This document shows positions 3 to 15,859 of a DNA stretch of 43,908 nucleotides, one piece after another. Made by a program: the position numbers and the translations under genes. The stretch is from an uncultured Alphaproteobacteria bacterium (GTDB taxonomy: Bacteria > Pseudomonadota > Alphaproteobacteria > Rhodobacterales > Rhodobacteraceae). Every line of letters begins with the position of its first letter. Position 1 is the first letter of the stretch. Location: assembly GCA_902560505.1 (NCBI GenBank), contig CACELY010000007.1, positions 1-43,908 on the forward strand. Reading direction: 5' to 3'. A model generated the notes under the pieces. That model was not told the origin of the DNA. It saw only the letters and a list, made by a program, of their open reading frames with translations, and made no database searches.

Positions 3-1019
3 AATGGTTTACCCGAAGAAGCCAAAAAATATCTTAATGAAATTTTAAAGACAGATCAAAAACACGAAAATGCTCCGAAATATTTAGCTGCCATTGCATT
101 GAAACAGGAAAGATTCAAAGAAGTATGGCATTATTACGAGTATCGATGGAAAACGCCACCACAAAACCAAGTAATATGGCCATTTCCGGACAAGCCATTA
201 TGGCGAGGAGAGAAAGGAAAGCACGTTGCTCTGTGGAGAGAGCAGGGTATTGGAGACGATATTATATTTCTAAGCCTGGTCCCCGAAGCTAAGGAGATGT
301 GTAGTAGTTTATCGGTATATGTTGATCCAAGACTGCAAGATTTATGCAAGCGAGCCATGCCAGAAATAAATTTTGTTAAAGATGTAGAAGAATTAGAGAA
401 TATAGAGTGTGACTATCATTTGCCACTGGGAAGTGTACCGGGATTGATACGTAATGATATTAGTGACTTTGATAGGACAGTTAAAGGATATATGAAGGCA
501 GATCCTCAGCGTCTGGAGTCGATACGCAATGAATTAGAGCTAGAGGATAAGACGGTGATTGGTATTTCGTGGAAGAGTTTCAATTCATTAAATAAGGCAA
601 AGAAAAGTGTTCAGTTGAAAGACATGGAGCGTATATTTTCGGGTTTGGATGTTGTGCTGGTAAATCTTCAGTACGGTGATGTTGAGGATGAGATAAGAGA
701 GTTTAAGGCGGCTACGGGAATAGATGTCGTACAATGTGCTTCCGTCGATAACAGAGAGGATCTTGACGGCCTAGCAGCATTGATAGAGGTGTGTGATTTA
801 GTAGTATCAACTAGTAATGTAACTATTCATTTGGCTGGAGCTTTAGCAAAAGAGACATGGGTTTTGTTACCCTATATCCTAGTAAATTTTTGGTGGCTGT
901 CAGATCGACCAAATAGTATTTGGTATCCTAGTCTATCCTTATACCGTCAAACGAAACCAGATGATTGGGAAACTGTTTATACATCCATTAGAACAGAGTT
1001 AAAGAATAAATTATGCTAA
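3..1019 (+). CDS. TPR protein with C-terminal glycosyltransferase-9-like domain (5' truncated)
   Basis: The frame is open from the left window edge to the TAA at 1019 (338 codons visible), so the start lies outside the window. The first ~50 residues look like the end of a tetratricopeptide repeat array (E-A-x-x-Y-L-N-E-I-L, then A-P-K-Y-L-A-A-I-A-L). The rest resembles the ADP-heptose-transferase-like module often found behind TPRs: a W-R-E-Q-G-I-G-D-D-I motif corresponds to the family's G-E-Q-G-x-G-D, and near the end S-T-S-N-V-T-I-H-L-A-G-A resembles its nucleotide-sugar-binding loop. A role in glycan transfer or protein glycosylation is inferred from this architecture and from the adjoining polysaccharide genes. 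The substrate cannot be read from the sequence. A separate 149-bp gap follows, with no recognisable feature. Confidence 0.7.
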   Translation, partial: NGLPEEAKKYLNEILKTDQKHENAPKYLAAIALKQERFKEVWHYYEYRWKTPPQNQVIWPFPDKPLWRGEKGKHVALWREQGIGDDIIFLSLVPEAKEMCSSLSVYVDPRLQDLCKRAMPEINFVKDVEELENIECDYHLPLGSVPGLIRNDISDFDRTVKGYMKADPQRLESIRNELELEDKTVIGISWKSFNSLNKAKKSVQLKDMERIFSGLDVVLVNLQYGDVEDEIREFKAATGIDVVQCASVDNREDLDGLAALIEVCDLVVSTSNVTIHLAGALAKETWVLLPYILVNFWWLSDRPNSIWYPSLSLYRQTKPDDWETVYTSIRTELKNKLC

Positions 1020-1168: not shown

Positions 1169-2662
1169 TTGATAACGAATTCGATAAAGACAAACTCAAT
1201 TAGACCTGTCATTGATCCGTTGGAGACAGTTCTATTGATTTTTCTTCTTCTGTTTTTCCTTATAATAAGAGTGCTTTTTCTCATCTATGCAGGTCCTCTA
1301 CCTGATGAGGCTTATTATTGGCTATGGTCGAGAAATGTTGCAAGCTCTTATTTTGATCATCCTCCACTTGCGGCTTGGGTACAGGCTTTTATCCTTAATT
1401 TGTCTGGCAATAAATATTTTGCAATAAGGGCACTCCCAATTTTTAGTCTAGGGTTTGTATTAATAATTTTGATAGTATGGCAGCAACATATTTCAAAAAG
1501 GACACAATATAACGAATCTTTAAAAAGTGTAGTCTTATTTTTAGCATTCCCAATATATGCTGTTTTCTTTTGCATATCGTTCCCAGACTTCCTCCTAATT
1601 ACGCTACTATTTGCAAGTTCTTTTTTTCTTTTCTTATATTTTGATACAGACAATAATCATATCAAGAGACTTAGTTATTGGTATTTTGCGGTATTTTTGT
1701 TTTCTTTAGCTTTACTAACGAAATATAATGCCATTCTCTTTGGTACAGGAGTTTTTGCCTATATCCTGTACAAAAAAAATGACATTACTGGCCCATCATA
1801 TGGGCATATTATTGCTTCCATTGTAATAGTATTTATAATGCAGACACCTGTAATATTCTGGAACTTAAGTAATGAATTTGCTTCATTTTCTTTTCATTTA
1901 TATGAGAGGTTAGACAATACCAATGAGTTTCCATTTATATTAAAAAATGCTTTTGGTTTTTTGCTTGGAGTGTTACTTGCTTTTTCTCCAGTCTTTCTTT
2001 TTAACTTAAAGAGCAATATTTTTTATAAAAATTATAGTACCAACAGAAAAAAATTCGTTGCAATGAGCAAATTTGTGCTATTTTCCTCATTAGTGTTCTG
2101 CCTGTTTCTGTGTTCATTCACAAATGTTCTTTACTATTGGCTAACTCCAGCGATGGTATTATTGACACCATTTTTAATCGAAATCATTAGATCAAAAATA
2201 CTGCAATACCTCCATATATTTTATGGAATATTGATTTCAGTAACTTTATTAATAAACGTCAGCTTATATCCAATAAGCGCATTTTTTGGTGATGTAGATC
2301 GAGAAACAGCAATATTATTCGGTTGGGAAAAAATAGTAGAAGTTGTGGCCAACGAAAAAAAAGCAAGTGGTATAGAGAAAGTTGTTTTTTCTGATTACAG
2401 ATTAGGATCTCTATATATCTTTTATTCTGGCGATTTTGAAGTGGATGTTATTATGCAGGAAAGAGGAACACAGTTTGATATCTGGAGAGAAGACGACAAC
2501 TCTTTTGGAAAGAGGACTTTAATTGTTACTGACAACGACTTTCCACTAGGTAAAAAGATTTCATCTAACTTTGAAAAGATTGAGTTTGTCAGAGATATAA
2601 AAATCAGTTTAGGAAGTAAACTTATAAAGAAGTATCAAGTTTTTTTAGGAACCAATACATAG
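1169..2662 (+). CDS. ArnT/PMT-like polytopic membrane glycosyltransferase
   Basis: 497 residues. The first membrane helix is followed by P-D-E-A-Y-Y-W-L-W and Y-F-D-H-P-P-L-A-A-W, the signature of the ArnT/protein-mannosyltransferase (GT-C) fold; the acidic D-E pair is the expected catalytic/metal site in the first extracytoplasmic loop. About ten further hydrophobic segments and a soluble C-terminal tail follow. Such enzymes use a polyprenyl-phosphate sugar as donor on the periplasmic face, which fits the GtrB-like donor synthase encoded at 9327-10418. The given start is a TTG without a clear Shine-Dalgarno site; no ATG lies near, so the first ~15 residues are uncertain. The gene ends exactly where the convergent AroE-like gene ends (2662/2663). 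The acceptor is unknown. Confidence 0.8.
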   Translation: MITNSIKTNSIRPVIDPLETVLLIFLLLFFLIIRVLFLIYAGPLPDEAYYWLWSRNVASSYFDHPPLAAWVQAFILNLSGNKYFAIRALPIFSLGFVLIILIVWQQHISKRTQYNESLKSVVLFLAFPIYAVFFCISFPDFLLITLLFASSFFLFLYFDTDNNHIKRLSYWYFAVFLFSLALLTKYNAILFGTGVFAYILYKKNDITGPSYGHIIASIVIVFIMQTPVIFWNLSNEFASFSFHLYERLDNTNEFPFILKNAFGFLLGVLLAFSPVFLFNLKSNIFYKNYSTNRKKFVAMSKFVLFSSLVFCLFLCSFTNVLYYWLTPAMVLLTPFLIEIIRSKILQYLHIFYGILISVTLLINVSLYPISAFFGDVDRETAILFGWEKIVEVVANEKKASGIEKVVFSDYRLGSLYIFYSGDFEVDVIMQERGTQFDIWREDDNSFGKRTLIVTDNDFPLGKKISSNFEKIEFVRDIKISLGSKLIKKYQVFLGTNT

Positions 2663-3553
2663 TTAATTCATAACCTTATAGATTTCTTCTATTGATAGAT
2701 TAGTCTGATTTGTATAACTGTAGGCAAGAACTGCCTGGATAAGGTTCATTCGTAATCCATTTATTGTTCTCAATCCTATTTCTTCGCTATTCTTCAGTAA
2801 TGTTGTTTTCAGTGGATCATAAATAATGTCATAAACAACCATTTTATCTTTAGCTTTTGCAAGTAAGTTTATTGGTACTGGGGTTACATCAATGCTTTCT
2901 AGGTGACCCACAGAGGTAGTATTGATCAGCAAATCACAATCAGGAAGAAAGATCTCTAAGTCATTAAGTGAATATGAATGCCAAGCACTTTCTTTGGAAT
3001 TTTTTATATTAATGGGACTTCTATTAAAAACATTCACTTTATGTTTTCTTTCAAAGTCTCTTGCAAGAAAAGCTAATATTGCCTTGCCAGCACCACCATA
3101 ACCCAAAAGGCATATATTTAAATTTTGACATTCTGTAAGTTGCTGCCTTATAGGCTCTAAGGCAGCCTCTCCATCTGTATTAGTTCCCGTAAAATCAACA
3201 GTTAAGGGTACAGAGGCTGATCGGTAAAAACAGTTTACGGTACCAATTGCCTTTATTTCCTCATTTACATTGTCTTTTATCAAATCAAACATTTTTTCTT
3301 TATAAGGAACAGCAATAGCTCCCCCTAAACAGTGTTTATCACTCTTTAAGTAGTTGAAAAGTTGATCAAGCTTTTCCTCCTTTACGTCTAATGGTACCAT
3401 TCGGACCTTTTTTTCTTCGTACGTGTAAACTTTGTTCCATAATTCAGGAGACCTAGCACCCACAGAAGGTTTTGTACCCACAATAACACTGTAAAAGTCT
3501 AAGTTTGATTCTTCGACTTCATTTTCTATAATGTTATTTAGATACTTAAACAT
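2663..3553 (-). CDS. AroE-like (shikimate dehydrogenase family) oxidoreductase, divergent substrate pocket
   Basis: 296 residues with the AroE fold. There is an N-terminal substrate domain, a Rossmann domain with G-Y-G-G-A-G-K-A (151-158) and a V-F-N-R-S NADP loop, then I-N-T-T-S-V-G and a C-terminal G-L-R-M-N-L-I-Q. The catalytic pair is present: Lys85 in V-P-Y-K and Asp127 in G-T-N-T-D-G; Asn107 and the late Gln are also kept. By alignment from memory with E. coli AroE, several shikimate-contacting residues are not: S14 reads Ala33, N59 reads Ala79 and T61 reads Ala81. A reductase acting on something other than dehydroshikimate is therefore inferred. It is the last gene of the five-gene operon starting at 7591, and its start overlaps the end of the DAHP-synthase-like gene by 8 bp. 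A housekeeping aroE with an unusual sequence is the alternative. Confidence 0.8.
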   Translation of the reverse strand: MFKYLNNIIENEVEESNLDFYSVIVGTKPSVGARSPELWNKVYTYEEKKVRMVPLDVKEEKLDQLFNYLKSDKHCLGGAIAVPYKEKMFDLIKDNVNEEIKAIGTVNCFYRSASVPLTVDFTGTNTDGEAALEPIRQQLTECQNLNICLLGYGGAGKAILAFLARDFERKHKVNVFNRSPINIKNSKESAWHSYSLNDLEIFLPDCDLLINTTSVGHLESIDVTPVPINLLAKAKDKMVVYDIIYDPLKTTLLKNSEEIGLRTINGLRMNLIQAVLAYSYTNQTNLSIEEIYKVMN

Positions 3554-4439
3554 TTAATATCTGTTTCCCAGTGATCTGCGCTATTTTATCCATTTTGCGT
3601 ATTAAGTGTGAAAAAGTCTTGAAATCGATAGGTTGAAGAGGATCAACTGCTGAGTTTTCAGGATCCGGATGAACCTCTAGCATTATACTGTCCGCACCAG
3701 CTGCTACACTAGCAAGTGCCATCGGTGCAACCCAAGGACGCCAGAACGTAGCATGGGATGGGTCTACAGCTATCGGCAAGTGCGTTATCTCTTTTGCAGC
3801 TGGAACAACTTGTAGGTCTAATAAAAATCTCGATGAATCTCTATGTGTATGAGGAACTGTGACTCCTCGTTCACATAAAATAATTTTTTCATTACCCTCA
3901 TAAAGCGCATATTCAGCGGCGCCGAGCCAATCTCTAAGTGATGCACCAAAGTGTCTCTTTATCATTAAAGGTTTTTTAGTTTTTGCTGCAGCTGAAATCA
4001 ATGGATAATTTTGCATATTTCTTGAGCCAATTTGAAGTATGTCAGCTACTTCGCAAATCAGGTCGAGATACCTTTCTTCCATGACTTCTGTTATAATTCC
4101 GAGACCAGTTTCCTTTTTTGCGATACCAAGCCACCTTATTCCTTCTTCACGGGTTTCAGTATATTTATCGGATCTGTAGGGAAAGCTTAGGGGTTTGAAA
4201 GCTCCACCTCGCAAAAAATGAGCTCCCGCTTTTTTGACATTAATTGCCGTTTCAACAATAAGTTTCTCGCTTTCAACCATATTTGGCCCAGCCATAATGG
4301 GGATTAAATTTTCTCCGAAAGATATACCACCAATATCAAACTTGGAGAAGTGTGTACTATTTTTTTTTGACGCTAAAGGGAACTTCTCCGCCATATCTTC
4401 AGCCGAGACATCTTTTCCAGGGGCCTTATTTTGTATCAT
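3546..4439 (-). CDS. DAHP/KDO8P-synthase-family 3-deoxy-ulosonate synthase homologue
   Basis: 297 residues matching the type I-beta DAHP synthase barrel (AroF of Bacillus/Thermotoga type), which condenses phosphoenolpyruvate with an aldose phosphate. Clear blocks: L-R-G-G-A-F-K-P (77-84), D-I-L-Q-I-G-S-R-N-M-Q-N (133-144), K-R-H-F-G-A-S (161-167), I-L-C-E-R-G (187-192), D-P-S-H (226-229) and L-E-V-H-P-D-P (254-260). Two hallmark sites differ. The metal-ligand Cys of G-P-C-x-x-E-S is Asn53 (G-P-N-M-V-E-S), the state seen in metal-independent KDO8P synthases. The K-P-R-T-S motif for erythrose-4-phosphate reads K-P-L-S-F (83-87). The other metal-site residues (His229, Glu255, Asp266) appear kept. 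The operon partners are CMP-sugar genes, so I infer that it makes a 3-deoxy-2-ulosonic acid for a glycan rather than feeding aromatic synthesis. Overlaps its upstream neighbour by 14 bp. Confidence 0.85.
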   Translation of the reverse strand: MIQNKAPGKDVSAEDMAEKFPLASKKNSTHFSKFDIGGISFGENLIPIMAGPNMVESEKLIVETAINVKKAGAHFLRGGAFKPLSFPYRSDKYTETREEGIRWLGIAKKETGLGIITEVMEERYLDLICEVADILQIGSRNMQNYPLISAAAKTKKPLMIKRHFGASLRDWLGAAEYALYEGNEKIILCERGVTVPHTHRDSSRFLLDLQVVPAAKEITHLPIAVDPSHATFWRPWVAPMALASVAAGADSIMLEVHPDPENSAVDPLQPIDFKTFSHLIRKMDKIAQITGKQILNV

Positions 4440-5517
4440 TCTCTATACCTAGTTTTGAGCTACTCATCTGTTCTGATAAGTATATTTTTCGACCTTTTTC
4501 CTCACTAGCATAAATTGAGTGTATAAGCCTAAGGGTATGGACACATTCTTTTGCTAGAAATGGAACTTTATCCATTTGACCATTACTGAAGTGTTGATGA
4601 ATCTTTTTGAGTTGTCTGTAATGACTTATACCGTAACCATTATCAACCTCCTCGGAATATTGGCTGGCAATATCTTTTTCACTATCAACAGAGTCAGAAA
4701 AACTCCACTGTTGTATCTTATTAAGAGCTACTCCCCCAATTTGCGCAACTCCTTTTGTTCCCGTAATAGTTATTGATGCCTCAAGATCTTTTGGCCTTGC
4801 GGCTGTTGTCAGCTCTAAGGTGGCTAAGCCACCATTCTCTAACTCAATAGCTGCCACTAGTGTATCCTCTGCCTGAAGATCATTTGCTCTTTTTGCTGAT
4901 ATTGCACAAACAGACTTTGCATTTCCGCATATCCAGGTGAGAGCATCGACGTGATGGATAGCTTGCTGATTTGTAACTCCGCCATCCTGTGCCCAAGTTC
5001 CATGCCAACCATCATCATAATATTCTTGAAGCCTACACCATCTCAATCTCACAGATACTGACACCAAATCGCCAAATCTCTTTTGTTCGAAAGCATTTTT
5101 AGCAAGTTTAACTGCTGGGTTTAACCTGTTCTGAAAGATTGAGGAACAAAACTTCCCGGTTGCAGACGAAATGTTAATTAAATCCTCTGCGTGTTCTATT
5201 CTAAGGGATAATGGTTTTTCTACTATTACATTTAAACCATTCAACAAGCATATTTTTGAATGTTCGTAGTGTTGACCACTTTTGGTAAGTATAAGAACCA
5301 CTTCCATATTTTTGTGCTGAATAAACTTTTCAATATTATTGTAAGATCTACAGGAAAATATATTTCCAACACTTGTGCTTTTATTTTTGTCTACATCACA
5401 ACAAGCGATGACTTCGTAAAGGGAGCCAACTCTTTCTGAAATTAATATTTTCTGTATGTAATGGTCGCATACACGGCCGCATCCAAGAATGCCTATTTTT
5501 ATCTTTTCTCTATTCAT
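4426..5517 (-). CDS. Gfo/Idh/MocA-family NAD(P)-dependent oxidoreductase
   Basis: 363 residues. The N-terminal Rossmann domain starts I-G-I-L-G-C-G-R-V-C-D-H-Y (8-20), and the E-K-P motif with the catalytic Lys is at 100-102. A G-G-x-x-x-x-Q-x-x-H-H-x-D segment (179-191) supplies the active-site His residues of sugar dehydrogenases such as the WlbA type. Family members oxidise or reduce a sugar hydroxyl/keto group, often on a nucleotide sugar. Within this operon it probably shapes the sugar or ulosonic acid before or after CMP activation; the exact substrate cannot be read. The start codon overlaps the end of the GT2-cytidylyltransferase gene by 4 bp, which indicates translational coupling, and its 3' end overlaps the DAHP-synthase-like gene by 14 bp. 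Confidence 0.85.
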   Translation of the reverse strand: MNREKIKIGILGCGRVCDHYIQKILISERVGSLYEVIACCDVDKNKSTSVGNIFSCRSYNNIEKFIQHKNMEVVLILTKSGQHYEHSKICLLNGLNVIVEKPLSLRIEHAEDLINISSATGKFCSSIFQNRLNPAVKLAKNAFEQKRFGDLVSVSVRLRWCRLQEYYDDGWHGTWAQDGGVTNQQAIHHVDALTWICGNAKSVCAISAKRANDLQAEDTLVAAIELENGGLATLELTTAARPKDLEASITITGTKGVAQIGGVALNKIQQWSFSDSVDSEKDIASQYSEEVDNGYGISHYRQLKKIHQHFSNGQMDKVPFLAKECVHTLRLIHSIYASEEKGRKIYLSEQMSSSKLGIENDTK

Positions 5518-6860
5518 TCTTTTTCTCGCTTATCAATTTGAAACGAATATGGATATTTTGGAACAGGAGAAAGTCCTACATTATTTGTCAAGATTGTATT
5601 GTTCCTTATGTTATCTACATACGTTACAGCTCCCAAACCAAACAAATTTATATGTATTTTCTCAGGTTTAATGCTTCTTGACATCATTTTGGTATCTCCA
5701 ATTGGATTAATTTTATCCTTACTGTCTAACCAGATACTTCTCTGCTCAATGACTGACGCACACACTGTGTCGTATCCACCGTCAATGATATTATTTATCA
5801 ATTTGGTAAGTAATCCTTTTGGTCGGAAAGGATAATTTTCTTCTGCAACCACTACTAAATCAATGTTCCTAAATTTCTCTATTTTCTCAATAGTATATTT
5901 TAATACATCTGGCAAACTTACATTTTCATCTGAAAGTGCAATTGGCCTTATGAAAGGAGTTAATGCACCATTATCTCTAGCTACCTTTGCCGTATCTTCG
6001 TTATCTGTTGATACATAAATGTCTGAAATGAGCTTACAAGATTTGAGGTACTTTATACTTTCGACCAATAAGTTTTTTCCCTCAAAATTGGTTGGCAATC
6101 CTTTAATGGGAAGTATGCTGATTATATTTAGCTTATCTATTATCAGCTTTGAAAGGGAGGCCGGTGAGCCCTCTAAATTTTCGATAATATTCACAATCTT
6201 TTCGGCTCTATCAACTTTTCCACCATGATTTATGCCATGGTGGTGGTAAACGCAGGCATGAGGAGTGTAAAATATATGATATCCATTCTTTATAACCTCA
6301 GAACCCCATAATCTGTCTTCGATATTAGTTGTGGTTTCATCAAATGGAAATTTCTCCCACATATCTCGTGTTAATGCACTGTTAGCATTGTGAAAAAAGC
6401 TATCCTTTCTCTGAGTTCGTTCATCTAACCCAAAAACGACAGTAAGATCTCTTCTATCTAATGCTGAAGTAGAAGATAAGGGTTCTTGGCGACCGTAAAC
6501 ACCAGCAAGTAAACCAGTGGGATCATTTTCTAGAGGCTCAATTAATTTTTGAAGCCACATATTATTTTTTGGAATACAATGTCCAGATATGATCACGACA
6601 AATTTACCAGATGAAGCCATGATACCTTCGTTTATAGCTTTTCCTGGATAAAATTCAGCTACATTTATAATTTTGTCTGTGTATTTTTTTGCAATTTTTA
6701 CGGAGTTGTCGTCGGAGTTATTATCAACCAATATGATTTCATAGTCTTTTATACTTTGTGTAGCTATAGCGCTCAAACAATGGTCTATCCATCTTTCCTC
6801 ATTCTTTGTTCTTATAATTATTGAAACCAAAGGAGTTGAGGGCTCAGTATTTATATTCAT
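5514..6860 (-). CDS. GT2 glycosyltransferase fused to a CMP-sugar-synthetase-like domain
   Basis: 448 residues with two modules. Residues 1 to ~230 are a GT-A family 2 glycosyltransferase: V-S-I-I-I-R-T-K-N-E-E at 12-22, I-L-V-D-N-N-S-D-D at 43-51, with the usual DxD position reading S-G-H-C (92-95). Residues ~245-448 resemble NeuA/KdsB cytidylyltransferases: the helix I-Y-V-S-T-D-N-E-D-T-A-K-V-A-R-D-N-G-A, then P-F-I-R-P and L-S-D-E-N, as in the S-T-D-D-x-E-I-A and P-F-x-R-P blocks of NeuA. The CTP-binding loop that reads A-R-G-G-S-K-x-x-x-x-K-N in active enzymes is I-K-G-L-P-T-N-F-E-G-K-N here (252-263), so the domain may be inactive or regulatory. An intact NeuA-like enzyme is encoded just upstream (4-bp overlap). 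I infer a transferase that recognises a CMP-activated sugar acid. Confidence 0.8.
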   Translation of the reverse strand: MNINTEPSTPLVSIIIRTKNEERWIDHCLSAIATQSIKDYEIILVDNNSDDNSVKIAKKYTDKIINVAEFYPGKAINEGIMASSGKFVVIISGHCIPKNNMWLQKLIEPLENDPTGLLAGVYGRQEPLSSTSALDRRDLTVVFGLDERTQRKDSFFHNANSALTRDMWEKFPFDETTTNIEDRLWGSEVIKNGYHIFYTPHACVYHHHGINHGGKVDRAEKIVNIIENLEGSPASLSKLIIDKLNIISILPIKGLPTNFEGKNLLVESIKYLKSCKLISDIYVSTDNEDTAKVARDNGALTPFIRPIALSDENVSLPDVLKYTIEKIEKFRNIDLVVVAEENYPFRPKGLLTKLINNIIDGGYDTVCASVIEQRSIWLDSKDKINPIGDTKMMSRSIKPEKIHINLFGLGAVTYVDNIRNNTILTNNVGLSPVPKYPYSFQIDKREKE

Positions 6861-7591
6861 AGGAATAGTTTCACCTTTTCAGGATTATTTTTTTTCAAAT
6901 ATTCAAGCGCTTTTTCCGCTAAGAAAAAATCAAACTCATTATGAATATCTATAGATGTTTCAAAGTTATTATTAATTATTATTTCGACGTTATTCCCTAT
7001 TCTCTTTCCATTACGCCACAAATAAGATCTAGAAGCACTCGTCAGTCCAGTATCTTCTCTATAAATTGGTTCTTTCTCCTGTCTGCTCGAATAAACTTTC
7101 ATTTTTTTTGAAACTCTTTTTAATTTACCATCCTTATTTCTTTGCCAAAAGTTTTTGTGAGTTGGATGAGCAGCAAAAACTGACTCTAGAGCATTATTAT
7201 TCTCTAATTTTTCTATAGCATTAGTAAGCCAACTGGAATCTCTAAAAATGTCTGTGCAGGTTAGGAAAACACATATATCAAAGTGTTGTTTTGTAAGCTT
7301 TTCAAATTTATCTAATGCATCTTTTAAAGTTGCTTCAGTGGTAGTATTATCTTGGGCTAAATTAGGTGATCTTAAAGATGGAACTTGAGCTCCATATAAC
7401 TTTGCTTGTTTAGCAATTTCTTCGCTATCTGTAGTTACTATTACAGAATCTATCCTCTTACAATTCTTAGCCGCTATAATCGGCCAAGCTATCAGTGGTT
7501 TGCCATTAAAAATTCGCAAATTCTTTCCTGGTAATCCCTTAGACCCGCCTCTAGCAGGAATGACACAAATGGTTTTTAACTTACTTCTCAT
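6857..7591 (-). CDS. NeuA-like CMP-sugar (acylneuraminate-type) cytidylyltransferase
   Basis: 244 residues. The CTP-binding loop I-P-A-R-G-G-S-K-G-L-P-G-K-N lies at 11-24, followed by N-G-K-P-L-I-A-W (29-36), V-T-T-D-S-E-E-I-A (52-60) and Y-G-A-Q-V-P (66-71), as in NeuA/PseF/LegF enzymes. These transfer CMP from CTP to the anomeric hydroxyl of a 2-keto-3-deoxy sugar acid. No NeuB-type synthase is beside it; instead the operon carries a DAHP-synthase homologue, so the activated acid is probably not an ordinary sialic acid. The segment that usually reads S-P-L-R is D-I-F-R (114-117), with the Arg kept. It is the first gene of the operon, and no Shine-Dalgarno site precedes its ATG. Confidence 0.85.
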   Translation of the reverse strand: MRSKLKTICVIPARGGSKGLPGKNLRIFNGKPLIAWPIIAAKNCKRIDSVIVTTDSEEIAKQAKLYGAQVPSLRSPNLAQDNTTTEATLKDALDKFEKLTKQHFDICVFLTCTDIFRDSSWLTNAIEKLENNNALESVFAAHPTHKNFWQRNKDGKLKRVSKKMKVYSSRQEKEPIYREDTGLTSASRSYLWRNGKRIGNNVEIIINNNFETSIDIHNEFDFFLAEKALEYLKKNNPEKVKLFL

Positions 7592-7852: not shown

Positions 7853-9319
7853 TTATTGAATTTTTTCTATTGAAATTACACTGATAATTCCATATTGGTA
7901 CATGCCTCTATAAAAAGGTATATTAACTTTTCTAGTAATATTATAGTTGTACGACAAAATTTTCTCTGAAAAATCACTGTGTTTATTACTGTGAATAAGT
8001 TGGACATGAATTAGCGTACTAAATTTTTTTTTCGTCAGATCAATATGTTTAAAATGATTACCATTTGGACCGATTACACCAACGGGGTACTTGAAATAAA
8101 AAGCCGCGGTTAGTTGTCCACTGTCATACCAATTAAGTGTTGCTAAAGACTCCAATTCTTTTTTTTGAAGAGTTTTCGTCAAAACTTCTGCAATGTGTCC
8201 CCAATCCAGTAGCTCCCTAGTATTATCCCATCTAGGTAATTTCTGATCAAAGCTTCTAGTGATGAAACCTGTTTTTGCATGAATTAAAATACTTGAAATC
8301 ATAACGACGATTACAAAAACACTAGCAACTTTCAAAGTTATCAGATGGTATTTGTATGATTTTATCAAGATAAGTCTATTTGATGCAACAGGAATCAATA
8401 ACATCCATCCAACCATAGACCAGTGGGAAAAACTGTTATCAGAAAACAAAATTAAAATGTTAAATATAATTATCGTTGGTAGAGACAGCAAAATAAGAAA
8501 TTTTTCATTTACAGTAATGAATTTTTTATTTTTCATTAAACTTGTAATAATTAAAAAACCAGTAGTTGGTAGCAACAAGAAAAGTTGCGCAAATATAGAG
8601 TTAATAATGTGAATAAGATCAAAGCCGAATGAGCTTCTGTTTCCGTGAAAATTGAAGCTCTCAAAGTTATTCTCCATGTTCCAAAGTAATACCGGTACCA
8701 ATCCAAGAAGAGAAATTAATAGAGAAATATAAAAGTTTTTTGTGAATAGCACACCTCTTCTCCATATAATGAAAGCGATAAATAAAGTTATTCCAAAAAG
8801 ATAAGCTTGGTATTTTGATAAAAAAGCTATTGATAAAAGTAGGCCTAGTGAAATCCATAAATAGACATTATCCTCATCGTTAAAAATTAGTTTTATTGCT
8901 ACGAAAGTTGCGCCAGCGACAGAGAAATTCAAAGACGCGTCGGGTAAAACAAAAAGACCCCCTGAGAAGAAGAAAAAGGGAGAAACAAAATATAGAATAG
9001 CTGAAACGGTTCCAGCCTGCTTTGAATAAATTGTAGAAGCGATCTTATAAAGAAAAAAGCTCGTTAGCAAACCAAAAGCAATAAATGGAATTCTAAAAGT
9101 ATTTAATGAAACAAATTCAAATAAGTGTAAAATATATGATACCCACATCGTTAATGGGGGGTGATCAAAATACGATAGAGATAAGTATCTACTAATGGTT
9201 AACGTATATGCCTCATCGTTGATCAAGGGAACATATTTCATCACTGTAAGTTTTGTAAGGCAAAAAACTATAAACAAAAATATGAGCAAGTGAGTTTGGT
9301 TGTATACTTTGACGTTCAT
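7853..9319 (-). CDS. ArnT/PMT-like polytopic membrane glycosyltransferase (second copy)
   Basis: 488 residues from the ATG at 9319. A frame extension to 9391 exists but would overlap the GtrB-GtrA gene by 65 bp and adds no family residues, so I chose the ATG that leaves a 7-bp gap. The N-terminal helix is followed by I-N-D-E-A-Y-T-L and Y-F-D-H-P-P-L-T-M-W, the same catalytic loop as the protein at 1169-2662. Many hydrophobic helices and a soluble tail follow. GT-C enzymes of this type move a sugar from a polyprenyl-phosphate donor to lipid A, glycan or protein in the periplasm. Placement directly behind the GtrB-GtrA gene suggests that gene provides its donor. The acceptor is unknown. Confidence 0.8.
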   Translation of the reverse strand: MNVKVYNQTHLLIFLFIVFCLTKLTVMKYVPLINDEAYTLTISRYLSLSYFDHPPLTMWVSYILHLFEFVSLNTFRIPFIAFGLLTSFFLYKIASTIYSKQAGTVSAILYFVSPFFFFSGGLFVLPDASLNFSVAGATFVAIKLIFNDEDNVYLWISLGLLLSIAFLSKYQAYLFGITLFIAFIIWRRGVLFTKNFYISLLISLLGLVPVLLWNMENNFESFNFHGNRSSFGFDLIHIINSIFAQLFLLLPTTGFLIITSLMKNKKFITVNEKFLILLSLPTIIIFNILILFSDNSFSHWSMVGWMLLIPVASNRLILIKSYKYHLITLKVASVFVIVVMISSILIHAKTGFITRSFDQKLPRWDNTRELLDWGHIAEVLTKTLQKKELESLATLNWYDSGQLTAAFYFKYPVGVIGPNGNHFKHIDLTKKKFSTLIHVQLIHSNKHSDFSEKILSYNYNITRKVNIPFYRGMYQYGIISVISIEKIQ

Positions 9320-9326
9320 TTTCTTA

Positions 9327-10418
9327 CTAAGACTTCCAGGTAAAAATAGATGTAAGTGTAAAATTCCAAACAGCGCCGATACAAGCACCAATAAAGCTTG
9401 AAATTAGCCAATTATATGAAAAATAAAAAACATAGGTCGCTATAGCGATATTTGTAAATGCTCCCAGAGAACAAATTAGATAAAAGGAAAACAGTCCCCT
9501 TATTAAGTCTAGAGATTTCAATTTTCGTTCCTTAAATGTAATGATGTTATTGAGGAAATAGTTTGAGGTCATGGCGGCAATTATTCCCACTGTTTGAGAA
9601 GTAGGGAACTGATTTGTTAATAGCATTGCGAGACCGGTAATTAACAATTGAACGAATATACCACTAAGGCCAACCATGCAGAAAAGTATAAATTTTATAG
9701 AAACTCTCCCGTTAAGTATCTGAGACAAAACGAGACCAATCAACTCCAAGGCGGTGAGAAAACTCATCTTACTTTCACCTGCAACACGGTTTTTGAAGCT
9801 GTATCCGACTTCCTTAATCTCAATACTCGTTCCAGATGTTGCTAAAAAGTCTGCTAGAACTTTGAAGCCCTGAGTTTGTAACTTATCAGATTTCTTTAAA
9901 AAAGATTCTCTTTTTACCATGAAGAAGCCTGATAAAGGATCAGTAGATTTTATTCTTAGAAGTTTCTTTATCAAAAACGTAGTTACCTTACTTCCTAACT
10001 TTCTTATCTTCGAGAACGCATTAATGGAAATTTCTCCATCTGCGGTAAATCTACTGCCAATTACAATATCTAGTGAAGCATCTTTATAAAACAGATCTAA
10101 CATGTCTCTCAGTTTAGTCTCATCGTGTTGAAGGTCACAGTCCATTACGGCAACCAAGTCAGATCTTGCAGCAAATATACCCTCAATTATCGCGCCTGAG
10201 AGCCCCCTTCTACCTACTCTATGGATAAGATGAATTTTAGATGAATTTTTAATAAAATTTTTTATCTCACAACTAGTTCCATCTGGACTATTGTCATCGA
10301 CAAATACTATTTCATGCTCAACACCCCTTAAACTTTTGCGCAACATTTCTATAATTCTAGAAATATTTTCTTTCTCGTTGTAGGTCGGAATTACAATTGA
10401 AACTGTAGGATTTTTCAA
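9327..10418 (-). CDS. GtrB-like polyprenyl-phosphate hexose synthase fused to GtrA-like membrane domain
   Basis: 363 residues. Residues 1-~235 are a GT2 domain of the dolichyl-phosphate mannose synthase type: V-S-I-V-I-P-T-Y-N-E-K-E-N (6-18), V-F-V-D-D-N-S-P-D-G-T (38-48), and the metal-binding M-D-C-D-L-Q-H-D (92-99). The last ~120 residues form four hydrophobic helices of the GtrA family, beginning I-K-F-I-L-F-C-M-V-G. The likely reaction is transfer of a hexose from a nucleotide sugar to undecaprenyl phosphate, with the GtrA part helping move or present the product across the membrane. The start is TTG at 10418, chosen because a strong AAGGAGG (complement of 10425-10431) sits 6 nt upstream. 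It is probably cotranscribed with the ArnT-like gene that follows 7 bp later. Confidence 0.85.
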   Translation of the reverse strand: MKNPTVSIVIPTYNEKENISRIIEMLRKSLRGVEHEIVFVDDNSPDGTSCEIKNFIKNSSKIHLIHRVGRRGLSGAIIEGIFAARSDLVAVMDCDLQHDETKLRDMLDLFYKDASLDIVIGSRFTADGEISINAFSKIRKLGSKVTTFLIKKLLRIKSTDPLSGFFMVKRESFLKKSDKLQTQGFKVLADFLATSGTSIEIKEVGYSFKNRVAGESKMSFLTALELIGLVLSQILNGRVSIKFILFCMVGLSGIFVQLLITGLAMLLTNQFPTSQTVGIIAAMTSNYFLNNIITFKERKLKSLDLIRGLFSFYLICSLGAFTNIAIATYVFYFSYNWLISSFIGACIGAVWNFTLTSIFTWKS

Positions 10419-11581: not shown

Positions 11582-12274
11582 TTAAGTTTTTTGGAAGGCA
11601 TACATATTGTACGTTAGAAAATATTGATTTGCAGGGCTTATCCATTGTTTTGAGACGATTACAATGGTGGTGCCTGCAAGCAAATCGAACTCATTTTTAT
11701 AACTATATTGTTCACTTTCACATTCCTCAGTAAACCTATCAATGGTTAGCTCAAGCTCCAAAATTTGAATAGTCTTGGATGGTATTTTTTTTGCTCTACA
11801 GCGGAAATTTAAATCATTGTATTTATTCTCACTATTAAGATATCTATGAACTTTTTTGTATGATAATCTGTTTGACCCAAACAATTCTTTTGGGCTCGTA
11901 TATTTCAAAGAATAAAGATCTTGTGAGTAACCTCGAGTAGCAATTAAAATACCCTGATCGTATGTCAAACTTATGCCATCTGCACTTACCCAAGTCAATT
12001 TTTCTTCGTTATTACCTAATGCAATGAGAGTTGCTTGATTTTTAAAGTCTGTCGAAGATATAAGAATAATAGGTTGATTAAAATTCGAAAGCCAACTGCT
12101 CGTTCTTTCTATTCCCTCGAGAGGTCTAGATGATTTAGTTGGGCCAGTAATACTTTTCTTTGCAAAATCTCTATAGATTCCATAAAACTCTTCCTTCTCT
12201 TTTTTAACTACATCATCCGATGAGCAAGAAATTAAAAAAGCTACAACACATAGAATTAATATCTTTAAATTCAT
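11582..12274 (-). CDS. yjbF: YjbF/GfcB-family polysaccharide-export lipoprotein
   Basis: 230 residues. The lipoprotein signal ends F-L-I-S-C with Cys17 as the lipidated residue. The body carries P-I-I-L-I-S, Q-A-T-L-I-A-L-G-N-N, W-V-S-A-D-G-I-S-L and I-L-I-A-T-R-G-Y-S-Q-D-L, a pattern I recognise from YjbF/GfcB proteins (group 4 capsule/exopolysaccharide operons). An outer-membrane-anchored role in assembly or secretion of a polysaccharide is known for the family only in outline. The start overlaps the end of yjbH by 4 bp, so translation is coupled. No yjbG (GfcC) homologue lies next to it. Confidence 0.8.
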   Translation of the reverse strand: MNLKILILCVVAFLISCSSDDVVKKEKEEFYGIYRDFAKKSITGPTKSSRPLEGIERTSSWLSNFNQPIILISSTDFKNQATLIALGNNEEKLTWVSADGISLTYDQGILIATRGYSQDLYSLKYTSPKELFGSNRLSYKKVHRYLNSENKYNDLNFRCRAKKIPSKTIQILELELTIDRFTEECESEQYSYKNEFDLLAGTTIVIVSKQWISPANQYFLTYNMYAFQKT

Positions 12275-14379
12275 CTAAATACTCTTTTCCAATTATCCTG
12301 AAGATTTTTTGTGTCATATTCGCTTATTGCATTGTATAAGTATTTGTCTTTACTTAAATTAAGTTTTGCCCCTCCATCACCCGTTATAGGTCTAATTGTG
12401 GCACTAGCTACAGCTCTTGATTTTTTCCCAGTAAACCAACTTATCGGTGCTTTAATTATCAAACCTTTTTCAAAAGATCCTTCTCCAAAAGTTGAAAAAG
12501 GTACATCTGTTAAAGTTGCATATGCCCCAAACTCCCAGCCATTATTAAAAGATCTGTTTATTGAAAGTGTTGACCCTAAATCTCCTGCAAGATATTTTCC
12601 AAAATCAAATTTTACAATCCAGTCTCTTGGTAAATCATAGTAAATTGATGCAAGGTAAGTACTGTAATATTCATTTTTTAAATTGAAGTTACCCGATGTT
12701 TCTCTTTTCTGTACGTTGGCAACATCTAGACCAAAAGCAAACGGCTTCTTATTGTTTTTCCAAATTATTTCCGACCTTACACCTGCATGCATTAACTCCA
12801 AAAGACCCACATTAACCACCCCATATAAATTTGGTAAGGGTTTTAAATATTGATCGATAGTTAAAAAATTAATAAATAAATTTGACCCAATGTCTCTGTG
12901 GTAATACATAAAATCAGACCTAACATTAGGAAGACCAGATTTAGGCCCTCGTTTCACTTCATCCATTATTCCTGTAATTGGTTTTCTGAGTGATCCAGAA
13001 ATTGCTGTTAATGGTGTGACTTTATATCTTCCATATAACTCTGCTCCGATATGGTACCTTATGGGAGCATCGGGGTCGAAGAGCATTAGGTCTAGATATG
13101 GGTAAAAAGACCAAGAAAGCCGATTCCCCTCTTTCTGATCATTATCAAAAAACAATTTATTTGAATTATTTATTGTAACCGAGCCAAATAAATTCTCGGG
13201 ACCATTAAATTTTAATTCATTGTCTTCAAAATCTTCTCTATTTATGGTTATTTCAGATACAACTAAATTAGATTTGAAATCAATAATGTTTATTTGAAAC
13301 TCTCTAGTTATGGGAGGAGTAGTAAGTGATAGTATTCTTGCCACTCTGCCGATCATTTGAGAGATGTTAATATATCTTCGATTAATAATTCCAACTTCTA
13401 CATGATTTCCGAATAATTTGAGCGCTTTAAGTTCGATTCCTTCAAGCTTTAACAATCTTTTACTCTCAGCCAAAATGTCCTTTTCTGAATTTGGATCTTG
13501 AGAGCGATACTTTTTTTGTAGGATAGGCATAGGTGCTGGCTCAGTTCCACTTTGATAAGGACTATTCTTAGGATTTATGCCCAAGTTCACTGTAAGTCCT
13601 ACTGTGTCCATGTGCATCAAGGTCGCCATAACGGTTAAGGTTGGGTCAACACTGTATTTAATACCAATATTTATGTCACTCCTCCGATTGAAGCCTTTTG
13701 GTGATGACACCTCTTGATAATATCCGTCCGAAGAAAATTCTGATATTATCTGTAATTTTTTACTTGCTCTATAACTTAAAGAAAGAAAAGGTGAATTATC
13801 ACCTGAAAATATATTGTCAGTTTCCAAGGTTCCGCCATAACCATGATCTCTTCCTCCTCTATTACTTCGACTGAATATATTTGTGAATCCGTTATATCCT
13901 GCAAATCTACCCCAACCTACTCCACCAGATATTTTAAAATCGGGCCCAAAAGACTTTGTCATGACGACATATTCTCCAGAGTATATACCTGTGCCAATAA
14001 AGTCTCTCAACCCTAGAGCAACAGAAGGAAAGATGGGCTTTTCTTTGAACACCAAATAATGAAGGTCAAAACTTCTGTCCCAAGCGTAACCTTTGTACCT
14101 TCCACCTGGGACTCGGGCATACCTAAAAGCCCCGGTAAGATTTTCTAGAATTTGAAAAGATAGATTAACTCTTATAGTCCCACCAAATGCAGATGACGAA
14201 ACTGAAAATTGGCCATCTGGCAAACGAGTTGCTGAGGGTAGATCGATATCACCAGGCATGCCGAAGTTATTCAGTGAGATAGTATCTTCAAATTCGCTTG
14301 CTACAATTTTTTGAGTAAAATTGAGATTTAAAATGAATATAGTGAAGCTCGCAAAAACTAAACACCTTATTAAACCCAT
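12271..14379 (-). CDS. yjbH: YjbH/GfcD-family outer-membrane exopolysaccharide protein
   Basis: 702 residues, close to the usual YjbH length. A signal peptide (cleavage about residue 28) is followed by N-N-F-G-M-P-G-D-I-D-L-P-S-A and D-G-Q-F-S-V, the start block of the family. Long stretches of amphipathic beta strands with aromatic ends follow, as expected for an outer-membrane barrel or pair of barrels. A mixed alpha/beta insert (about residues 300-400) separates the two strand-rich regions. YjbH proteins are tied to exopolysaccharide export. The gene sits 17 bp behind uppS and overlaps yjbF by 4 bp, so it is in one operon with both. Confidence 0.85.
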   Translation of the reverse strand: MGLIRCLVFASFTIFILNLNFTQKIVASEFEDTISLNNFGMPGDIDLPSATRLPDGQFSVSSSAFGGTIRVNLSFQILENLTGAFRYARVPGGRYKGYAWDRSFDLHYLVFKEKPIFPSVALGLRDFIGTGIYSGEYVVMTKSFGPDFKISGGVGWGRFAGYNGFTNIFSRSNRGGRDHGYGGTLETDNIFSGDNSPFLSLSYRASKKLQIISEFSSDGYYQEVSSPKGFNRRSDINIGIKYSVDPTLTVMATLMHMDTVGLTVNLGINPKNSPYQSGTEPAPMPILQKKYRSQDPNSEKDILAESKRLLKLEGIELKALKLFGNHVEVGIINRRYINISQMIGRVARILSLTTPPITREFQINIIDFKSNLVVSEITINREDFEDNELKFNGPENLFGSVTINNSNKLFFDNDQKEGNRLSWSFYPYLDLMLFDPDAPIRYHIGAELYGRYKVTPLTAISGSLRKPITGIMDEVKRGPKSGLPNVRSDFMYYHRDIGSNLFINFLTIDQYLKPLPNLYGVVNVGLLELMHAGVRSEIIWKNNKKPFAFGLDVANVQKRETSGNFNLKNEYYSTYLASIYYDLPRDWIVKFDFGKYLAGDLGSTLSINRSFNNGWEFGAYATLTDVPFSTFGEGSFEKGLIIKAPISWFTGKKSRAVASATIRPITGDGGAKLNLSKDKYLYNAISEYDTKNLQDNWKRVFR

Positions 14380-14396
14380 TCTATTTTATCCAAAAG

Positions 14397-15113
14397 CTAC
14401 ATTCTTCTTTTTAAAGACTCTGTTTTGTCCAAAGAACCAAACTTTCTTGTTCTACTGTGATAATCAGACAAAGCTATTTTTAAATCTTTAATTGAAAAAT
14501 CTGGCCATGGGTTCTCAGAAAAATAAAGTTCGCTGTATGCTGATTGCCATAGTAAAAAATTCGACAAACGTCTCTCGCCGGCTGTTCTAATTATTAAGTC
14601 AGGGTCTGGCAAGTTACGGCTATCTAGATAAAGAGAAAATAGATCTTCGTCAATCTCTGTCTCACTGATTTTTCCCCTGGAAATCAGTGATCCAATCCGT
14701 CTAGCTGCTCTCACTATTTCAGCCCTGCCGCCATAATTTAATGCTAATGTCAGTGACATTCCTTCATTATCTTTAGTTAAATCAACTAAATTCTTTATAT
14801 ATTTTTGAATAATTTTTGGAAACGGACTTATATCACCGACGATGGAAACCTTTACATTTTCTTGGTGCAGCTGTGTAAGTTTTTTATTTAAATAATATTT
14901 AAATAGGCTCATGAGCGCTTTAATTTCGTACACTGGTCTATGCCAGTTTTCAGTAGAGAAAGCGTATAAAGTTACGTGCTTTATATTTAAATTTACACAT
15001 TCTCTTAAAATTATTTCTACATTCTCTGCGCCCTTTTTATGCCCTAAGGCTCTAGGCAGACCCCTAATAGAAGCCCATCTTCCGTTGCCGTCTAAAATAA
15101 AGCCGATATGCAT
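14397..15113 (-). CDS. uppS: Isoprenyl transferase (undecaprenyl diphosphate synthase family)
   Basis: 238 residues. The catalytic loop I-L-D-G-N-G-R-W-A is at 6-14 with Asp8 as the Mg/pyrophosphate residue. H-V-T-L-Y-A-F-S-T-E-N-W, A-L-N-Y-G-G-R-A-E-I-V, P-D-P-D-L-I-I-R-T-A-G-E-R-R-L-S-N-F-L-L and the late W-P-D-F follow. The enzyme adds isopentenyl units to farnesyl diphosphate to make the C55 carrier lipid used by cell-wall and glycan synthesis. The usual alphaproteobacterial location is frr-uppS-cdsA; here it stands between DUF1624 and yjbH, so it may be either the only copy or a second, polysaccharide-linked one. Gaps to its neighbours are 20 and 17 bp. Confidence 0.9.
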   Translation of the reverse strand: MHIGFILDGNGRWASIRGLPRALGHKKGAENVEIILRECVNLNIKHVTLYAFSTENWHRPVYEIKALMSLFKYYLNKKLTQLHQENVKVSIVGDISPFPKIIQKYIKNLVDLTKDNEGMSLTLALNYGGRAEIVRAARRIGSLISRGKISETEIDEDLFSLYLDSRNLPDPDLIIRTAGERRLSNFLLWQSAYSELYFSENPWPDFSIKDLKIALSDYHSRTRKFGSLDKTESLKRRM

Positions 15114-15133
15114 GCCAACCTGCCAAAAATTTT

Positions 15134-15859
15134 TTAAGATGTTAGTTGAATAAATATAAAGAATAAAGAAAAAAGTAATGGTTGGTGCAAAATATAAATA
15201 ACCAGTGATTTTTGGCCAACATACTCAATAATTTTTAAAACTAAACCCAGCTGTGGACCAGGATTAGAAGGATTTTTATATTTTTTATTTGGTATTTTAT
15301 TGATAATCCCTCCGAGCAAAAAACCAAAAAAGTAGAAAGTAATCCAAGGAATTATAGGATAAAAATCATTGGTTAATGGTACCTGTTTATTAAACCCTAG
15401 CCATGAAAAAATAAAAGGTATGTTAAAGGTTATCTCACTTATACTAATCAAGGCTGTACCAAGAAAAATAAAAAATAATTGGCGGTTAGACTTTATCTTA
15501 ATTAGTATTAGACTGATAATGGAACACACTGAGAGAAAGTGTAAAATACCAAAGAAAATAAAACTACTTTTATCTAAAATAAACGTCAGTACTGAGATGG
15601 CAATTGATATTGTCATCAACTTAAATATGCGTTTCACAATTTTAGCTTTACAGCTATTTGACAGGCTTAGTAGTCTGGTCGATATACCGGCTATAGTAAT
15701 AAAGCTTAAGCCTATAAGCTGGGCTAAAAATAACCCCAACCCCTGGGTTACCACTCGAAGATCAATAAACCCAAAATAACCTAAATCCCAATAAAAGTGA
15801 TATATTATCATAGCGAACACACATACGCCTCTCGAAATATCTAGAAGAAAAATTCGCAA
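15134..15859 (-). CDS. DUF1624 / HGSNAT-like membrane protein
   Basis: 241 residues with about seven hydrophobic helices. The N-terminus D-I-S-R-G-V-C-V-F-A-M-I-I-Y-H-F-Y-W-D-L (8-27) carries the R-G, His and W-D-L pattern of the DUF1624 family, related to heparan-alpha-glucosaminide N-acetyltransferase. A late G-Q-K-S-L-V-I-Y-I-L-H-Q-P motif (about 217-229) with another His is also typical. Transmembrane acyl transfer to a glycan is possible but not shown for this subgroup. It is the first gene of the operon leading to uppS-yjbH-yjbF and diverges from the WecA-like gene across 135 bp. Confidence 0.7.
   Translation of the reverse strand: MRIFLLDISRGVCVFAMIIYHFYWDLGYFGFIDLRVVTQGLGLFLAQLIGLSFITIAGISTRLLSLSNSCKAKIVKRIFKLMTISIAISVLTFILDKSSFIFFGILHFLSVCSIISLILIKIKSNRQLFFIFLGTALISISEITFNIPFIFSWLGFNKQVPLTNDFYPIIPWITFYFFGFLLGGIINKIPNKKYKNPSNPGPQLGLVLKIIEYVGQKSLVIYILHQPLLFSLFFIFIQLTS

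Follow-up and report, generated by a model that had tools for sequence, protein, structure and literature searches.

A five-gene operon that may direct the synthesis of a cytidine monophosphate (CMP)-activated 3-deoxy-2-ulosonic acid was identified in an uncultured member of the Rhodobacteraceae (assembly GCA_902560505.1, 1.28 Mb, 71% complete). The window, that is the whole stretch of DNA that was analysed, is contig C7 of this assembly (CACELY010000007.1; 43,908 nucleotides). The operon appears to encode a dedicated, horizontally spread CMP-3-deoxy-2-ulosonate pathway with flagellin as the likeliest target in this genus, a reading to which a probability of about two in three is given. The five genes lie on the minus strand and encode a NeuA/PseF-like CMP-sugar synthetase (6857..7591; gene 1, 244 amino acids), a family 2 glycosyltransferase (GT2) without a DxD motif fused to a CMP-synthetase-like domain without a nucleotide loop (5514..6860; 448 amino acids), a Gfo/Idh/MocA dehydrogenase (4426..5517; 363 amino acids), a putative phosphoenolpyruvate (PEP)-condensing enzyme resembling type I-beta 3-deoxy-arabino-heptulosonate 7-phosphate (DAHP) synthase (3546..4439; 297 amino acids) and an AroE-like dehydrogenase (2663..3553; 296 amino acids), respectively. 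On re-reading of the open reading frames (ORFs), the overlaps of 4, 4, 14 and 8 bp given in the preliminary description of the window were matched exactly, and its five family names hold (CTP_transf_3, Glycos_transf_2, GFO_IDH_MocA, DAHP_synth_1 and Shikimate_dh_N).

In the proposed pathway, the DAHP-synthase-like enzyme would join PEP to an aldose different from erythrose-4-phosphate and, as its residues suggest, would probably need no metal. The Gfo/Idh and AroE-like dehydrogenases may modify either the sugar itself or the aldehyde from which it is made, both being putative substrates. The NeuA-like enzyme, to judge from its family and motif, would form the CMP-sugar, which the GT2 may use or hold, and FlmG-like tetratricopeptide repeat (TPR) glycosyltransferases encoded next door may pass the sugar to flagellin in this genus. 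The best reading of the synthase is that of a third type of PEP-dependent synthase in CMP-ulosonate pathways.

The synthase scores 166.6 bits against PF00793 and 315.1 bits against PRK08673, short of the 335 bits required. It fails the KdsA model TIGR01362 (88.7 vs 314 bits) and misses the PseI cut-off (21.1 vs 340.25 bits); the NeuB domain PF03102 is reached (26.8 vs 22.1 bits), but the SAF domain is absent. Homologues were collected by scanning GTDB species genomes with two synthase peptide patterns, and 80 loci were kept of 93 relatives. These 80 synthases were compared with 10 ordinary type I-beta enzymes and 13 KdsA-type sequences, the labels "KdsA-type" and, below, "type I-alpha" being assigned from score and length. 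The metal-ligand Cys is replaced by Asn53 in 80/80 homologues, whereas Cys is present in 9/10 ordinary type I-beta enzymes. One scan pattern contains this Asn (17 loci carry that pattern alone); Asn53 is also found in all 63 loci with the N-terminal pattern (55 with both patterns, eight with the N-terminal one alone) and in both orthologues found by tblastn. The KPRTS motif, which binds erythrose-4-phosphate, has become KPL[S/T]F (KPLSF in the window), with Leu84 and Phe86 in 80/80 homologues against Arg and Ser in 10/10 ordinary enzymes. Its loss throughout the set argues against erythrose-4-phosphate, which is probably not the acceptor. The C7 product favoured earlier is not supported, since the loss of the motif tells nothing of chain length.

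The operon synthase is 35-43% identical to ordinary type I-beta members and keeps the metal His, Glu and Asp (His229 and Asp266 in 80/80 homologues; Glu255 invariant in an eight-sequence alignment) as well as K82, K161, R162 and R191, presumably the PEP site. It differs from them, besides the two replacements, in a two-residue insert (R89-S90), in E95 and R97 for Gly, and in a three-residue insert at 194-196 followed by HTH. Arg89, Glu95 and His197 are each present in 80/80 homologues. According to the available part of one study (PMC3052366), a Cys-to-Asn change marks the metal-free form of 3-deoxy-manno-octulosonate 8-phosphate (KDO8P) synthase; because the operon synthase carries Asn at the same metal position, it probably works without a metal as well.

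Other Rhodobacteraceae genomes contain matches of only about 23-30% identity, taken for KdsA, or none. Among 398 sampled genomes of the phylum, two clear orthologues (72% and 61% identity) were found besides the own genome, both with an AroE-like gene directly downstream, whereas ten ordinary type I-beta DAHP synthases in the same genomes are only 35-40% identical. The 80 loci include SAR11, SAR86, SAR116, SAR324, Roseibium, Marinomonas, Denitromonas, Azospirillum, Thalassobaculum, Nisaea, Prochlorococcus and several metagenome-assembled genomes. Host names are as deposited and may be wrong for metagenome-assembled genomes, and the Prochlorococcus single-cell contigs may be co-sorted DNA; Prochlorococcus MIT 9302 is a cultured strain.

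Recurrence of the gene set was counted in the 54 well-flanked loci (at least 5 kb before and at least 3 kb after the synthase gene), with 26 set aside. Order refers to the order among the five genes, with intervening genes allowed and any NeuA-like match accepted. In 36/54 of these loci the five genes share a strand and a 7-kb stretch, and in 26/54 they follow the order of the operon; outside the genus the counts are 33/51 and 23/51, respectively. Recurrence had been proposed as a check on the preliminary description, and the set does recur; chance clustering was rejected on these counts. The same order is found in Roseibium, Marinomonas, Denitromonas, SAR11, SAR86 and others, sometimes with extra genes in between. 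The protein clusters span at least 70, 65, 61, 57 and 54 of the 80 loci; the ORF caller chooses frames on the wrong strand in GC-rich loci, so the true numbers may be higher. Representatives of the neighbour clusters present in at least four loci gave no kinase, phosphatase or dehydroquinate synthase by Pfam, with two genus-only clusters left out of the scan and several representatives giving no match at all.

In a tree restricted to rows of more than 240 residues (81/81 synthases, 10/10 ordinary DAHP synthases, 12/13 KdsA-type), the synthases are monophyletic with a support of 0.76, and the ordinary DAHP synthases and KdsA-type sequences fall outside the clade. Hosts are intermixed within it, Marinomonas joining Denitromonas and SAR86 standing among alphaproteobacteria, a pattern indicative of horizontal transfer. 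Pairwise distances were correlated in 35 sets, namely the window and the 34 of 66 foreign loci in which each of the five proteins has a long match. The distances of the GT2, Gfo, synthase and AroE-like proteins correlate with rho of 0.47-0.78, against maxima of 0.33-0.47 in 500 permutations, the Gfo-synthase pair merely equalling its maximum.

Within the genus, the synthase is present in 16/22 genomes, the own genome included, with 80-100% identity. Two further genomes (G016 and G021) hold the front of the operon, the rest being cut by the contig end, so that 18/22 carry operon parts. The other four genomes (G001, G006, G011 and G018; 69-90% complete) showed nothing beyond short matches of 30-35% to the GT2 fusion. 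Of 15 genus regions surrounding the synthase gene, 12 contain all five genes in identical order, and the other three are cut by contig ends.

The remaining four proteins were aligned from the locus clusters and the window (NeuA-like n=60, GT2 n=58, Gfo n=62, AroE-like n=66). The first gene product matches CTP_transf_3 with 94.1 bits, and its closest PDB sequences are NeuA-type synthetases; it misses the PseF equivalog cut-off (124.9 vs 205.7 bits). Its nucleotide loop, ARGGSKG at residues 13-19 in the window, is conserved as AR.GSK in at least 80% of the 60 sequences. A long extension of the NeuA-like protein was seen in L082, L085, L087, L092 and L093; the only one scanned (L093:2145-3893) is a methyltransferase, which suggests a methylated sugar.

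The GT2 fusion matches Glycos_transf_2, and its match to CTP_transf_3 falls slightly below the cut-off (20.6 vs 22.6 bits). In place of the DxD motif it carries S[GA]HC[IVL]P, in which S, H, C and P are invariant in 58/58 sequences. An AlphaFold model of the fusion (pLDDT 89.5) places the C-terminal domain close to the CMP-N-acetylneuraminate synthetase 6ifd (TM-score 0.79 by target, 2.4 Å). The RGGSK nucleotide loop is absent from this domain, and an active second cytidylyltransferase was rejected although the fold is present. The earlier naming of the protein as a GT2-cytidylyltransferase is not supported, as the C-terminal domain is probably inactive in that role. A candidate lone copy of the domain in one genome (G156; ORF L161:7422-8108), which adjoins a separate GT2 gene, was also rejected, with a weak match (E 0.006), a shared PFRP stretch and no Pfam match.

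Conserved segments run through the 62 Gfo/Idh/MocA sequences. The nearest PDB entries of the operon protein are 3q2i (E 1.9e-56) and 3q2k (E 3.4e-53), followed by the next at 7.8e-15. Both are WlbA-type 3-dehydrogenases of UDP-N-acetylglucosaminuronic acid; the operon core differs from such systems in having no aminotransferase partner. The AroE-like protein misses the AroE equivalog TIGR00507 (118.5 vs 200.2 bits). Its catalytic K85 and D127 are kept in 66/66 sequences, as are N107, Q273 and S35. The carboxylate-binding residues of AroE are Ser14, Ser16 and Thr61 (Escherichia coli numbers). At these positions the first Ser is Ala33 in 66/66 sequences, the second (S35) is retained, and the third (position 81) is Ala in 41/66 and Thr in 25/66. 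The PDB matches of this protein include 5-ketofructose reductase (7cok; E 3e-13), an AroE fold acting on a keto-sugar; several shikimate dehydrogenases match the query at least as well.

Genes for aromatic synthesis were sought elsewhere in the genomes. The own genome contains a second AroE with 100.6 bits, against 41.9 bits for the operon protein. The own assembly, 71% complete, yielded no other DAHP synthase, type II included. Of the 14 genus genomes examined, nine have a type II DAHP synthase; six of these carry the operon synthase, equal to 6/11 of the synthase-bearing genomes examined. Dehydroquinate synthase is encoded elsewhere in the genome in 8/14. Fifteen foreign genomes were compared by PF00793 matches only, type II not being searched there. 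In five of them (Marinomonas, Denitromonas, two Thalassobaculum and Prochlorococcus MIT 9302), a second match of 268-327 bits in a frame of 356-406 amino acids resembles type I-alpha DAHP synthase; in nine the second match is only KdsA-like (237-255 bits), and G550 has a single match. The operon synthase of Prochlorococcus MIT 9302 (L112) occurs there with no KdsA-like PF00793 match.

The evidence for a flagellin target comes from the surroundings of the operon. The gene at the left edge of the window (3..1019, plus strand) runs past the edge and encodes the C-terminal, GT-B-like part of a TPR glycosyltransferase; the TPRs are seen in a full-length relative (L063). The part in the window models loosely near GT9/heptosyltransferases (TM-score about 0.5, root-mean-square deviation 6-8 Å). 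By its predicted domain build, an N-terminal TPR and a C-terminal GT-B part, the protein would be FlmG-like. In the available part of its description (PMC7591256), Caulobacter FlmG combines a TPR and a GT-B part and attaches pseudaminic acid to flagellins. L050 and L061 hold tandem copies of the TPR-glycosyltransferase gene. Contig ends fall in or near such genes in L048, L050, L052, L054, L058 and L061, and the window contig also appears to break there. Flagellin matches were found in 12/14 genus genomes examined, up to 18 in one; G005, G010 and G003 hold 18, 10 and 9 flagellin-domain matches, respectively, despite incomplete, small genomes. In two SAR116 loci (L136 and L137), genes for Gfo, synthase, AroE-like, GT2 and NeuA-like proteins, fliD and flagellin are consecutive on one strand, and a Nisaea locus holds flagellin, synthase, AroE-like, NeuA-like, Gfo and TPR-glycosyltransferase genes inside 10 kb. 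Flagellin is most likely the target in this genus, given the adjoining FlmG-like glycosyltransferases, the large number of flagellins and the SAR116 loci that run into fliD and flagellin. SAR11 and Prochlorococcus presumably have no flagella, so another surface glycan must be the target there.

Several results weigh against this account. The synthase passes the NCBI DAHP synthase model TIGR01361 (275 bits vs a cut-off of 267.75), one of the 13 KdsA-type controls has Asn at the metal position (the other 12 having Cys), and one of the 10 ordinary DAHP synthases lacks the Cys. In three of the 54 well-flanked loci, the synthase gene has no other gene of the set close by on the same strand. The operon parts of G156 are scattered across about 100 kb: the GT2 is a separate gene, the NeuA gene is 8 kb off, and Gfo and the synthase pair are found further down that contig. 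The NeuA distances fail to track those of the other four proteins (rho 0.22-0.34, below permutation maxima of 0.28-0.56), and a NeuB-type cluster is found in 12/80 loci, so the NeuA matched there may serve another sugar. A flagellin gene lies within the locus stretch in just 3/80 loci (L133, L136 and L137), L134 having FliD-like pieces only, and tblastn found no flagellin gene in the window or in the 15 genus regions. The window itself encodes a YjbH exopolysaccharide protein, a GT4 enzyme and an undecaprenyl diphosphate synthase.

These last genes, together with the PMT- and DPMS-type genes of the window, the Kdo transferase gene close to the L073 operon and glycan-type neighbours at other loci, would fit a pathway that is otherwise as proposed but delivers the sugar to an exopolysaccharide or O-chain. 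The array of TPR glycosyltransferases adjoining the operon, the many flagellins of the genus and the flagellin genes in the SAR116 and Nisaea loci make this destination rather unlikely. A known CMP-sugar (Kdo, Kdn, legionaminic or pseudaminic acid) made by way of an alternative synthase is improbable. The resemblance of the NeuA-like protein to PseF and the Prochlorococcus MIT 9302 genome, with its synthase and no KdsA-like match, would suit it; the PseF cut-off is missed, however, the five core genes include no dehydratase, aminotransferase, acetyltransferase or NeuC, and genomes with a KdsA-like match carry the operon synthase too.

The passed DAHP synthase model, the retained catalytic Lys and Asp of the AroE-like protein and the lack of a type II DAHP synthase in the incomplete own assembly would also agree with spare shikimate isozymes in a glycan region that feed DAHP and shikimate to the aromatics. 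Such a role is very improbable given the other AroE of the own genome, the type II enzymes of the genus, the type I-alpha-like enzymes of five foreign genomes, the KPRTS loss in all homologues, and the CMP-synthetase and GT2 as frequent companions. A housekeeping role was rejected on the second AroE, the KPRTS loss and the coexisting DAHP synthases; of the two other housekeeping enzymes that the preliminary description had asked for in this genome, AroE was found, whereas DAHP synthase was found in relatives but not in the own assembly, which is 71% complete. That description's dedicated CMP-ulosonate pathway apart from aromatic synthesis thus gains support from the own second AroE and the DAHP synthases of relatives. 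A cyclitol or aminoshikimate-like ring compound, made and attached with no ulosonic acid involved, is scarcely probable, even with DAHP-synthase-like and AroE-like proteins side by side and inositol dehydrogenases in the Gfo/Idh family. The cassette contains no dehydroquinate synthase, as described earlier, the genus copy lying elsewhere in the genome, and this route was rejected on that ground; we also know of no CMP-synthetase that acts on cyclitols.

The proposed CMP-ulosonate pathway resembles two known systems. In the Kdo pathway (KdsA, KdsB), PEP and an aldose give a 3-deoxy-ulosonate, which is then activated with CMP. The operon would follow the same logic and shares Asn for the metal Cys with metal-free KDO8P synthase, as given in the available part of PMC3052366, whereas its synthase falls in a separate clade without the KANR motif of the KdsA-type controls and the set lacks KdsC and KdsD. 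With the Caulobacter CMP-pseudaminic acid/FlmG system, as far as described in the available part of PMC7591256, it has in common a PEP-condensing synthase, a cytidylyltransferase, a TPR and GT-B glycosyltransferase and several flagellins; the operon synthase is of the DAHP synthase type and not NeuB, and the two dehydrogenases would replace the FlmA, FlmB, FlmH and FlmD steps. Among the open-licence literature matches listed, judged by titles and the starts of abstracts, the five-gene set is not described, and six sugar terms are absent from the available part of a study of Pelagibacterales O-chain clusters (PMC11898729). To our knowledge, no DAHP-synthase-type enzyme has a role in CMP-ulosonate synthesis.

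A five-gene unit common to many unrelated, mostly marine bacteria seems to make and activate a sialic-acid-like surface sugar by means of a repurposed enzyme of aromatic amino acid synthesis, in place of the customary sugar-acid synthases. Since the synthase passes a DAHP synthase model, annotation likely hides a surface-sugar pathway in common ocean bacteria. The chances are evenly balanced for a broader reading, which comprises a third, metal-free class of PEP-dependent ulosonate synthases on the DAHP synthase scaffold, an undescribed CMP-sugar pathway spread among ocean bacteria (SAR11, SAR86, SAR116 and Prochlorococcus), a new flagellar or surface sugar acid and a metal-free GT2 that uses a CMP-sugar. 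A new ulosonic acid, if true, would matter for phage receptors, for the glycosylation of flagella and for the O-chains of SAR11 and Prochlorococcus, about which little is known. An enzyme of the DAHP synthase type that naturally has Asn for the metal Cys would, if true, allow the change from metal to metal-free catalysis to be studied in a second family besides KDO8P synthase.

Several other genes were noted around the operon and its homologues. A PMT_2 GT-C membrane protein is encoded convergently at 1169..2662 (plus strand) and adjoins the operon in the genus. Upstream, on the same strand as the operon, lie the genes for another PMT_2 GT-C membrane protein (7853..9391, minus strand) and for a GT2 with a GtrA/DPMS membrane domain (9327..10418, minus strand). 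Genes for the YjbH-type exopolysaccharide protein, the undecaprenyl diphosphate synthase and an HGSNAT-like acetyltransferase are found near the operon at 12271-15859 of the window, and some members of the genus have a Kdo transferase gene upstream of the operon, as in L073 (1362-2654). Thirteen loci encode a SPASM radical SAM protein (L097:10889-11806) and six an enolase-superfamily (MR_MLE) protein (L102:1038-2204), one member of each having been scanned. A carbamoyltransferase gene (L110:10885-12699) is located between the synthase gene and the AroE-like gene.

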